Source: Bacteroidota bacterium
Lineage (GTDB): Bacteria > Bacteroidota > Ignavibacteria > Ignavibacteriales > Ignavibacteriaceae
DNA: 39,866 bases
Assembly: GCA_021831685.1 (NCBI GenBank)
Contig: JAKBMG010000105.1
Coordinates: 1 to 39,866 of the forward strand
Direction of reading: 5' to 3'
The position numbers and the translations under genes were made by a program. Each line of letters opens with the position of its first letter. The stretch's first letter is position 1. Below, piece after piece: positions 37,648 to 39,866 of this stretch. The notes beneath the pieces were generated by a model. That model had not been told where the DNA came from. It searched no databases and saw only the letters and a list, made by a program, of their open reading frames with translations.

Positions 37648-39534
37648 CTAAATAATATCATCTTTACGTTCTAACTGATACTTCCTTTTTTTAGCGGAAG
37701 ACTTGATTTTAATTATATCTCCATCCTCTAAATAGACCTCATCAACCCCAACAGCTCCTCTCAAAGAATTAGTTAAAATAACTTCATCTGCCGATCTAAG
37801 ATCAGAAATCGTCAGTTTGCATTCATCAATATCCTTCACGTTTAGTTTGAAATACTCCCTGAACACTCCGGGCAAAATCCCGCAATCTATATGAGGTGTA
37901 AACCACTTTCCTCCTTTTCTTAAGAATATATTCGATATCGCTCCTTCGGTGATATATCCGTTTTCATTTAAGAAAAATACATCGAAGAATCCTTTCGAAT
38001 TATAATATTCAAACTCCGAATTATAAAGTTTGCGATTAGTCGTTTTAAAGTACCGGAACTTATCCGCAGTATCGATTTTTTTACCGGAAATTATTACTCG
38101 CACTTTTGATGGAATTGAATTAAAGACGCTTGTCTCTATTCTTATATCGCCGCCTTTGTTCAATGAATATTTTAACCTATAAATTAAACCGTCATCAAGT
38201 TTACTTACTGCTTCCTGAATTTTACTCCGGACTTTTTCTTCATCATAATTGAATAAGAAATGGTCAGCCGCATGTCTTAACCTATTCATATGCTGCTCAA
38301 ATAAAAGCACCTTTAGGTATTCCACCTTGCAGGTTTCAAATATTTCAAAATTGTTTTGAGGTTTCAAAAGGAAATTACCTTTCAAAAGGGTTTCTTTATA
38401 TTCTTCAACCGGAATACTGTCCCAAACAATTCCGCTTCCCAAGCCGATAACGCCGCATCCGGTATCCCGATCTATTTCAATTGTCCTTATTGATACATTA
38501 AAAACAGTCTTGTCTCCAAGTATCAAACCTATGCCGCCGGTATAAATTCCTCTTTTTTCCTTTTCTAATTCATTTATTATTTCCATCGTCCTTATTTTAG
38601 GCGCGCCTGTAATAGAGCCGCAGGGGAATAGACTTTTCAATACATCGCTTAAGCTGCAATCTTTCTTCAAAACTCCTTTAACTTCAGAAACCATTTGAAA
38701 CACAGATTCATACTTTTCAATTTCAAAAATATTTTCCGTAATTACACTTCCGTATTCGGAAATCTTCCCGATGTCATTTCTTAGCAAATCCACAATCATC
38801 GAATTTTCAGCACGATCCTTTTCGCTGCCCGCTAACAGTTCAAAATTGCGTCGGTCATCCTGTAAATTTTTGCCTCTTTTTATCGTACCTTTCATCGGCT
38901 TGGTGATAATATTTTTCTTTTTATCAATAGAGAAAAACAGCTCCGGTGAAAGCGATATAATTATTTTACTTCCGCAATTAATAATAGCCGTATATTTTGC
39001 CGATTGATTGAATATTAAGCTTTTGAAAAGCGCGGAATAATCACCGTTAAATTGAAATTTTCCTTTTACGGCATAGTTAACCTGGTAAGTATCTCCTTCT
39101 TCAATATATCCCTTAATTTTATTTATGTTCCGGACAAACTGATCTTCGGAAATATTTAATCTGAAATCGTTCAAAGAATAATCTAAACTGCCCAAGCTAA
39201 AATCAAGATTAATATCTTTAGAATTTATCTTTGTTACCCTGCTGAAAAGAACCGCTTTAAATATTTCTTCTTCGGTCCGGTAGAGCTTATTCAACTTATC
39301 TTCAAGTAAATAACTCGCCTCGTATGCAATTAAATTATATCCGATTAAACCGGAAGATAATTCTTTATCCATGATAGCTAGATTTTTTTCGAATTCTATT
39401 TTTGTTTTTGCCGAGAGTACTTTTGCCGGTTCCTCAAACAAATAAGAAAAAGAATCGTTATAAAACGAAGGAGTGTAAAAAAACGCGCTGTTTTCTTTAG
39501 ACAGGACTATATTAATAATTTCTTTAATATTCAT
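37648..39534 (-). CDS. pabBC: Bifunctional aminodeoxychorismate synthase component I / aminodeoxychorismate lyase
   Basis: It makes p-aminobenzoate for folate from chorismate. Residues about 1-375 form the PabB chorismate-binding domain with GDTYQVNYAV (147-156), SPELFFSIDKKKN, PMKGT (213-217, with the catalytic Lys), the AENSMIVDLLRNDIGKISEY block and CGSITGAPK (305-313). Residues about 385-628 form a PLP-dependent PabC lyase with FKTTNR (Lys497 expected to hold PLP) and ITEGAISNIF (528-537). The fused form is common in the FCB group. The ATG at 39534 is preferred over a TTG ten codons upstream. A PabA glutaminase partner is not in the window. An IS element begins close to its 5' end and may affect its promoter. 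Confidence 0.95.
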   Translation of the reverse strand: MNIKEIINIVLSKENSAFFYTPSFYNDSFSYLFEEPAKVLSAKTKIEFEKNLAIMDKELSSGLIGYNLIAYEASYLLEDKLNKLYRTEEEIFKAVLFSRVTKINSKDINLDFSLGSLDYSLNDFRLNISEDQFVRNINKIKGYIEEGDTYQVNYAVKGKFQFNGDYSALFKSLIFNQSAKYTAIINCGSKIIISLSPELFFSIDKKKNIITKPMKGTIKRGKNLQDDRRNFELLAGSEKDRAENSMIVDLLRNDIGKISEYGSVITENIFEIEKYESVFQMVSEVKGVLKKDCSLSDVLKSLFPCGSITGAPKIRTMEIINELEKEKRGIYTGGIGLILGDKTVFNVSIRTIEIDRDTGCGVIGLGSGIVWDSIPVEEYKETLLKGNFLLKPQNNFEIFETCKVEYLKVLLFEQHMNRLRHAADHFLFNYDEEKVRSKIQEAVSKLDDGLIYRLKYSLNKGGDIRIETSVFNSIPSKVRVIISGKKIDTADKFRYFKTTNRKLYNSEFEYYNSKGFFDVFFLNENGYITEGAISNIFLRKGGKWFTPHIDCGILPGVFREYFKLNVKDIDECKLTISDLRSADEVILTNSLRGAVGVDEVYLEDGDIIKIKSSAKKRKYQLERKDDII

Positions 39535-39628
39535 TTTAGAAGGACCATATAACGGTCTGCGCAAAGTTAATTAAAATTTTAATTTTTATTTCATAGAAAA
39601 TTACTTTATAGCACAAAATTACCCAATT

Positions 39629-39829
39629 TATAATGCGAAGTAATCATGGTACACTGAATAGGTTTTTAATGTTTGCTTACCTGACCAACGGTATGAAGGG
39701 GATATACATACAAACGATAGATATTATGTTTAAAATATAAATAAAAAGGCATCCTTTCTGTAAATTAGATAAAGTTGATTTTAATAAACAATCTAATTAA
39801 ATAAAATAAAAACAGTAAAGGATGCCTAA
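39629..39829 (+). ncRNA. Non-coding left end of an IS110-like element, candidate bridge RNA region
   Basis: About 200 nt of structured non-coding DNA precede the transposase start. It opens with a perfect -10 box TATAAT (39629-39634) with no good -35 upstream. In IS110-family elements the promoter is completed only when the ends join in the circular form. The GC-rich piece at about 39645-39705 can form GTTTG/CAAAC (39671-39675 with 39711-39715), and a nested stem-loop follows. Position and size fit the bridge RNA known from IS110-family elements (about 180 nt before the recombinase gene). This is inference; neither the element's outer boundary nor target-pairing loops can be fixed here. Confidence 0.4.
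39747..39827 (+). repeat. Long inverted repeat with nested hairpin covering the transposase ribosome binding site
   Basis: AGGCATCCTTTCTGT (39747-39761) pairs with ACAGTAAAGGATGCCT (39812-39827) in 15 bp with one bulged T. Inside, AATTAGAT (39763-39770) pairs with ATCTAATT (39791-39798). The right arm contains AAAGGA, the likely ribosome binding site of the gene starting at 39830. A transcript that enters from outside would therefore hide it. Confidence 0.8.
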
Positions 39830-39866
39830 ATGAAAAAGAAAAATAAAGAACTTGATTTTAGTAATC
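39830..39866 (+). CDS. Transposase N-terminus, probably IS110 family (cut by window edge)
   Basis: Only 12 codons are visible: MKKKNKELDFSN. In IS110-family transposases of Bacteroidetes-like bacteria a DF(S/T)-type segment commonly comes just before the first catalytic block (GIDVHK), which would lie outside the window. AAAGGA precedes the ATG at suitable spacing inside an inverted repeat. The family is a recollection-based guess from a very short sequence, but an insertion-sequence gene is likely given the flanking structure. Confidence 0.5.
   Translation, partial: MKKKNKELDFSN

Follow-up and report, generated by a model that had tools for sequence, protein, structure and literature searches.

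A predicted start-codon hairpin in the left end of a putative IS1111-group element from an Ignavibacteriales genome, and a 3' location of the guide RNA in its relatives

Introduction

The DNA analysed here, called the window, is a stretch of 39,866 nucleotides that makes up the whole of contig C64 in a 221-contig genome of an Ignavibacteriales bacterium, and it ends inside an insertion sequence. An initial annotation, made from the letters alone, read its last 240 bases as an IS110-like left end, in which a lone TATAAT, a small GC-rich structured segment, nested stem-loops and a transposase-like start would belong together and hold a bridge RNA in front of the recombinase gene. The locus raises the question of where the element begins, to which group it belongs, and whether the RNA structure ahead of its gene is a guide or has another function.

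Results

Boundaries of the element and its copies in the genome

Three other contigs of the same genome carry the left end, with identities to the window of 98% (C112), 98% (C185) and 88% (C116). The similarity of these copies to the window starts only at 39715, 39717 and 39719, and most relatives show an AG at the close of the left flank, then three bases, then the terminal repeat. On these two grounds the left end was set at 39721, and the AG before it is the presumed core dinucleotide (Table 1). The start lies ahead of 39740, past which the initial annotation would have seen no left end of bridge RNA size. Because the copies share sequence only from 39715 to 39719 onwards, the four features listed there do not form one left end. 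The TATAAT exists but lies in the host flank, about 90 bp outside the element, and the GC-rich structured segment (about 39680-39702) is flank sequence too. The TATAAT had further been described as lacking a -35 partner; a TTTATA does stand at a spacing of 18 bp, with 10 of 12 positions matching, but this is one such site against 3.2 in shuffled sequence.

Contigs C112 and C185 both break off before the seventh codon of the recombinase gene. C116 carries a remnant that reads through to QLISVGIDAHKK, including VGIDAHKK, and its frame continues to MKGKSKKLDFSNQLISVGIDAHKKR and then stops. The right ends were sought in the genome with TTGACWTTTAACATAA, a right-end sequence taken from relatives, which gave five matches and none in the reversed control. 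Three of these, on C35, C147 and C214, reach the contig end within 103-123 bases; they are identical across the shared 103-123 bp, which is all that can be seen of the element's own right end, and each is followed by CAGG. The fourth match belongs to a diverged second element on C155. The fifth (L032, C141:128-143) is a TTGACTTTTAACATAA right end with upstream sequence unlike the other three, and it is probably the end of another element.

The three left and three right ends, each cut about 103-146 bases from the element end, appear to belong to a single repeated element that was assembled or binned without its interior, and the genome would then hold about three copies plus one remnant. The missing interior also accounts for the sole PF01548 match of the genome being on C155. 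The recombinase beyond codon 12 and the 3' RNA of the element are absent from the assembly, and both are argued from relatives below.

Table 1. Features at the right-hand end of the window.
Feature	Position	Strand	Basis or remark
TATAAT	39629..39634	+	host flank, outside the element by copy alignment
AG at the left junction, presumed core dinucleotide	39719..39720	.	aligned copies and relatives
Left end of IS110-family (IS1111-group) insertion sequence	39721..39866	+	truncated by contig end; copies on C112, C185 and C116
Left subterminal inverted repeat TTATGTTTAAAA	39724..39735	+	compared with reverse complement of own right ends
Candidate -10 TATGTT of circle-junction promoter	39725..39730	+	sequence fit
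Leader hairpin, 5' arm AGGCATCCTTTCTGT	39747..39761	+	predicted fold, alignment
Inner stem-loop nested in leader hairpin	39763..39798	+	predicted fold
Leader hairpin, 3' arm ACAGTAAAGGATGCCT, containing the Shine-Dalgarno sequence	39812..39827	+	predicted fold, alignment
Shine-Dalgarno sequence AAAGGA, all bases paired in the predicted hairpin	39817..39822	+	predicted fold
First 12 recombinase codons, MKKKNKELDFSN	39830..39866	+	ATG at 39830, frame open at contig end

Synteny and an empty-site search led neither to a right-end partner for the left end of the window among the three candidates nor to a pre-insertion site. The flanking gene region was matched in 10 of 13 same-genus genomes, its own included. 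The loci of the two best relatives (L147 and L148) gave, as their best DNA hit to any of the three right flanks, 28 bases at E 0.012, and no protein match at 1e-3. A search of 39400-39866 against Rfam gave two matches at E up to 5, both far under the gathering scores. Beside the insertion, a 638-aa ORF on the minus strand (37648-39564) presumably encodes a fused para-aminobenzoate synthase/lyase (pabB-pabC).

Two more fragments of IS110-like recombinases were observed in the same genome, on C190 (C190:59873-60055, L010, and C190:5881-6177). In another genome of the genus (G009, contig C11), an approximately 300-bp copy with both ends and no recombinase gene (L022:1501-1800) retains the conserved 3' block GACCGTTCATAACAGGTTGA, and looks like an internally deleted, non-autonomous derivative.

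Recombinase and family assignment

The ATG at 39830 does open a transposase-like frame that runs to the contig end, as had been annotated, and the assignment of the left end to the IS110 family is supported by relatives. L016, a complete relative from the same family of organisms with a matching left end, has both PF01548 (6.4e-18) and PF02371 (8e-20); L014, which is cut by a contig end, has PF01548 alone; and the frame of the C116 remnant agrees. The second element of the genome, on C155, carries DEDD_Tnp_IS110 (PF01548) and Transposase_20 (PF02371) over the cut-off. The kinship with RNA-guided recombinases is likewise supported through relatives. Of 317 confirmed relatives 80 were kept, and the labels of these 80 loci include Ignavibacteriales, Melioribacteraceae, Bacteroidales and Calditrichota.

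In an alignment of relatives (A1), GIDVHK was invariant, and a GL-P----S(T)G motif was found in L016, L013, L023 and L024, the only four of the five rows to extend that far. This motif is given for the IS1111 group (PMC11187229), most of which have subterminal inverted repeats and a downstream non-coding region (PMC11187229, with which PMC11208160 concurs). The left non-coding end of the element is short, about 109 bp (39721-39829), and the right one is long, about 227-500 bp in the 35 relatives used; subterminal inverted repeats, which measure 7-17 bp in the IS1111 group, are present; and in the relatives, from which the motif and the right-end length are also taken, the flank match on the top strand lies 5' of that on the bottom strand. 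Judged from these sequence features, the element is probably an ordinary new member of the IS1111 group of the IS110 family.

Terminal repeats and a candidate junction promoter

Ten of the 12 positions of the left repeat TTATGTTTAAAA, among them an unbroken first seven, agree with the own right ends (TTGACTTTTAACATAA) read as reverse complement (hand count). In the relatives, variants of this repeat and of TTTTAACATAA stand at the start of the left end and at the close of the right end, respectively. When the two ends are abutted with a single CAG between them, a TTGACT of the right end stands 17 bp ahead of TATGTT in the left repeat (hand count), and the pair is a candidate circle-junction promoter. 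The idea that joining of the ends completes a promoter thus fits the sequence, with TATGTT in place of the upstream TATAAT as the candidate -10.

In five relatives (L073, L081, L085, L090 and L105) the left repeat reads TATGTTTG. These repeats fit TAnnTTTG, the -7 consensus of Bacteroidetes promoters. Given such repeats, the junction promoter may follow the promoter type of the host.

A leader hairpin anchored at the start codon

The nested stem-loops seen initially are present at 39747-39827. The predicted stem has 15 pairs and one bulge, plus the nested inner stem, and its loop is long and AT-rich. Folding of 39735-39850 gave -24.7 kcal/mol with a z of -6.65, and none of 200 shuffles was equally stable. 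In an alignment of 14 leaders (A3, in which the L021 row is short at its 3' end), two-sided changes were found in 12 of the 15 pairs, and 89.8% of cells were paired, a value that fell to 37-51% when the partner was slid. On four of five measures none of 500 shuffles scored as high, and on the remaining one 2 of 500 did. At the outermost position of the stem, 9 of 12 cells do not pair.

Recurrence of the structure was assessed on 48 non-redundant leaders (the window and 47 relatives) against 42 control ORFs, with starts assigned by rule, some of them maybe wrong, and with mechanical ORFs carrying a Shine-Dalgarno-like motif, not verified genes, as controls. A z of -2 or lower was reached by 40 of 48 leaders vs 10 of 42 controls, and at least half of the Shine-Dalgarno region was paired upstream in 47 of 48 vs 30 of 42; 39 leaders passed on both counts and nine failed, compared with nine of the 42 controls passing. 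Since 30 controls also pair this region, folding energy contributes more to the contrast than Shine-Dalgarno pairing does. A folding test of 70 nt upstream, which clipped long hairpins, gave z below -2 in 81% of 27 leaders vs 19% of 120 control ORFs. A stricter test, in which the stem had to be free of internal mismatches, put 16 of 47 leaders above every one of 40 shuffles; because mismatches occur in several of the stems, the folding test was preferred. Among distant, plasmid-borne IS110-family leaders, 5 of 14 passed.

The positions of the arms were measured in 26 leaders, close relatives included. The 3' arm, searched for between -20 and +2 around the ATG, ends at -4 to +2 in 24 of them and at -8 and -12 in the remaining two; for L021 and L024, the real start may be another in-frame ATG, which lies 9 or 6 bases further on. 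With folding begun 10 nt inside the repeat, which precluded smaller values, the 5' arm was found to begin 14 to 87 nt past the start of the left repeat; the hairpin spans 34-79 nt. The hairpin thus keeps its place relative to the start codon, not relative to the element end, which speaks for translation control. By prediction and covariation, the ribosome-binding site is buried in the leader structure in the manner of ISPpu9.

Two other functions of the inverted repeat were considered. It could be bound as DNA, by the recombinase or by a host protein, and it would suit such a site that all the two-sided changes counted are Watson-Crick and that none yields a G-U pair. However, a site belonging to the element end would be expected to keep its distance from that end, and the distance varies from +14 to +87 past the repeat while the 3' arm stays at the start codon. 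We consider a DNA site quite improbable. Alternatively, the hairpin could block only read-through transcripts that enter from outside, with the element's own promoter lying between the arms as in some insertion sequences. The long, AT-rich loop of the window would accommodate this, and there are precedents in IS200, in which one stem-loop stops transcripts that arrive from outside and another covers the ribosome-binding site (PMC3196728). Against this, the 5' arm in the 26 leaders begins at least 14 nt after the first base of the repeat in which the junction -10 lies, so junction transcripts should carry the hairpin too, and the shortest leaders would have little room for a promoter in the loop. 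Hence, a function limited to read-through seems unlikely, and the translation gate is preferred.

Location of the guide RNA

The position of the guide was examined in 35 elements picked by hand, leaving out duplicates, remnants and rows with no credible right end. The set adds the C155 element, with its left end re-read, and two loci represented by right ends only, and it holds some close relatives (L040/L043, L134-L136 and L049/L142). Each flank-swap test used 30 of the 35, with flanks of at least 12 bases and no N on the right. The mean longest match between the 3' region and the reverse complement of the right flank was 8.0 vs 5.68 with swapped flanks (n=30; maximum of the swaps 6.5, 0 of 5000 as high as 8.0). 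With the left flank it was 6.47 vs 5.86, and 2 of 5000 swaps were as high (n=30).

A bridge RNA in the left end of an IS110-group element (39629-39830), as initially proposed, would place these matches in the leader. A structured RNA does occur between the left end and the gene, and the leaders show a weak excess of matches to their own right flank (5.04 vs 4.59 swapped, 48 of 5000 as high), with 5.23 vs 4.93 for the left flank (334 of 5000). In the same elements, the 3' regions gave 8.08 vs 5.68 for the right flank (0 of 5000) and 6.38 vs 5.80 for the left (5 of 5000); this comparison covered 24 (right) and 26 (left) of 28 elements, and some leader ends in it are the first aligned residue. 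With the element's own flanks, the leader of the window has no match longer than 5 nt on the three left sides or longer than 6 nt on the three right sides, so that the guide match predicted for the left-end RNA fails. Moreover, the element starts only near 39721, and the structure in its left end of about 109 bp is a long hairpin with its 3' arm at the ATG. No guide-bearing RNA was found between the left end and the gene, and we regard a bridge RNA there as highly improbable.

In 12 of the 35 elements, a 6-8-nt match to the left flank in the 3' region reaches the junction, and in 11 of these a right-flank match lies 5' of it, not adjoining the junction in one case (L105). The twelfth (L042) has just 2 bases of right flank. 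The consensus fold of an alignment of twelve 3' regions is a stem with an internal loop, in which the right-flank guide on the 5' side faces the left-flank guide on the 3' side, and two-sided changes were found in 9 of its 15 predicted pairs. In L040, for example, the loop region contains GTCATTG (right flank CAATGAC) and TGCGGAG (left flank TGCGGAG). The guide-bearing RNA of the relatives is accordingly placed, by flank matching and predicted fold, in the 3' non-coding region.

Opening of the leader by RNA in trans

The leader could also be opened by an RNA acting in trans, either an antisense RNA, as proposed for Asr9 of ISPpu9, or the element's own 3' RNA. ISPpu9 provides a precedent within the IS110 family (PMC8450116). 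The complementarity between leader and 3' region was 8.84 vs 7.76 with shuffled 3' regions (n=25, 0 of 100 sets as high), but same-sense similarity was raised as well (8.56 vs 7.81, 0 of 100), so the excess does not point to pairing in particular. Taken singly, just 2 of the 25 elements exceeded every one of their shuffles, and one of these did so by a 19-nt match at the far right edge of its 3' region. When 3' regions were swapped among 17 elements, two of them with approximate leader ends, the antisense value was 8.82 vs 7.90 (7 of 5000 as high) and the sense value 8.59 vs 8.01 (97 of 5000); a shuffle test of 15 elements gave an antisense mean of 8.73 vs 7.68, with 8.33 in the highest shuffled set. 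In L055 and L078, the 3' region repeats a 10-nt stretch of the 3' arm of the hairpin, which would suit such opening. Two of 37 leaders carry an antisense promoter motif of the Bacteroidetes type, against 0.2 for shuffles; sigma-70 antisense promoters were not enriched in the 37 leaders (8.32 vs 8.36). Taken together, we hold opening in trans to be improbable.

As a separate observation, a 13-nt stretch of the L040 leader, comprising the end of the 5' arm and part of the loop, is complementary to the conserved 3' RNA block CAATTTTGCAGCA of the same element, and none of 100 shuffles had a complementarity as long.

Target sites

The own left flank closes with TGCCTGCCGG(C/T)AG in two of three cases, and the own right flanks start with CAGGCAG in two cases and CAGGTAG in the third. 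The sequence CTGCCGGYAGGCA occurs 44 times in this genome (24 forward and 20 reverse, palindromic sites counted twice) and 0 times in the reversed control. It is a dispersed, partly palindromic, REP-like repeat, and the element copy on C112 sits inside one. The 12-base form CTGCCGGYAGGCA had no match in the window with up to one mismatch allowed, and the left flank of the window, which ends in ACGATAG, is therefore an exception. From these flanks, the element seems to favour a dispersed palindromic repeat, like ISPpu9. The predicted guides are CTRCCTG for all three right flanks and CCGGYAG for the left flanks, the latter derived from two of the three and fitting the window's ACGATAG less well.

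Discussion

Comparison with known systems

The IS1111-group seekRNA elements ISEc11, ISPa11, ISKpn4 and ISPst6 (PMC11187229) share a DEDD recombinase with a Transposase_20 C-terminus and the GL-P----S(T)G motif with relatives of the present element, and they resemble the element itself in the subterminal inverted repeats, the short left and long right non-coding ends and, as predicted here, promoter sequences that meet at the circle junction. The order of the flank matches in their 3' RNA, top strand and then bottom strand, is the one seen here in relatives. The present element differs from them in lineage and target. A hairpin over the ribosome-binding site is not mentioned for them as far as the words "hairpin" and "stem-loop" go, neither of which occurs in the main text of that article. 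The bridge RNA of IS621 (PMC11208160) has an internal loop complementary to the target, like the RNA of the relatives, and a promoter rebuilt across the RE-LE junction, as predicted here, but it lies in the left end, unlike the right-end RNA in relatives of this element. Most IS1111-group elements have their RNA in the right end (PMC11208160).

ISPpu9 of Pseudomonas putida, a member of the IS110 family (PMC11208160), is similar in its AG at the junction, its location in dispersed palindromic repeats and its 5' leader structure (PMC8450116). Repression by that structure was shown with reporter fusions for ISPpu9 and is predicted here. When the ISPpu9 5'-UTR structure was weakened by mutation, expression of a translational fusion rose 26-fold, and the leader was proposed to be opened by an antisense RNA (PMC8450116). 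ISPpu9 has a 5'-UTR of 244 nt, an antisense RNA, Asr9, and a downstream sRNA, Ssr9 (PMC8450116). The left non-coding end here is about 109 bp long, and no sigma-70 antisense promoter signal was seen in it or its relatives' leaders. Of the articles consulted, PMC8450116 is the only one with a translation-repressing leader in an IS110-family element, and searches of open-access literature turned up no description of the hairpin across IS1111-type elements. The novelty is modest and consists in how widely a start-codon-anchored leader hairpin recurs, which extends the ISPpu9 precedent.

Proposed mechanism and implications

We propose that the locus combines an IS1111-group left end, a circle-junction promoter, a 3' guide RNA and a leader hairpin that acts as a translation gate, and we put the probability of this joint reading at roughly 80%. 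The element would excise as a circle whose joined ends form the promoter (TTGACT, 17 bp, TATGTT). The junction transcript would run from the leader through the recombinase gene into the 3' non-coding region, which would be matured into a bridge/seekRNA that guides the recombinase to a new target containing AG. At the left end, the RNA would serve as a translation gate and not as a guide: by burying the ribosome-binding site, the hairpin would allow little recombinase per transcript, as the ISPpu9 reporter fusions showed for that element.

The guide RNA of this candidate programmable recombinase would have to be sought in the 3' region, which is missing from the assembly. If the hairpin is a translation gate, expression of the recombinase from its native sequence should remove or unpair it, as ISPpu9 suggests. 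A more general proposal, which is possible but still doubtful, is that IS1111-type elements of Ignavibacteriales/Bacteroidota and neighbouring phyla generally carry a purpose-built, covarying start-codon hairpin that sets the ratio of guide to enzyme and is opened by an element-encoded signal. If this were true, one junction transcript would yield many guide RNAs and little recombinase, and the signal that opens the gate might be, for example, the loaded recombinase, the 3' RNA or an antisense RNA.
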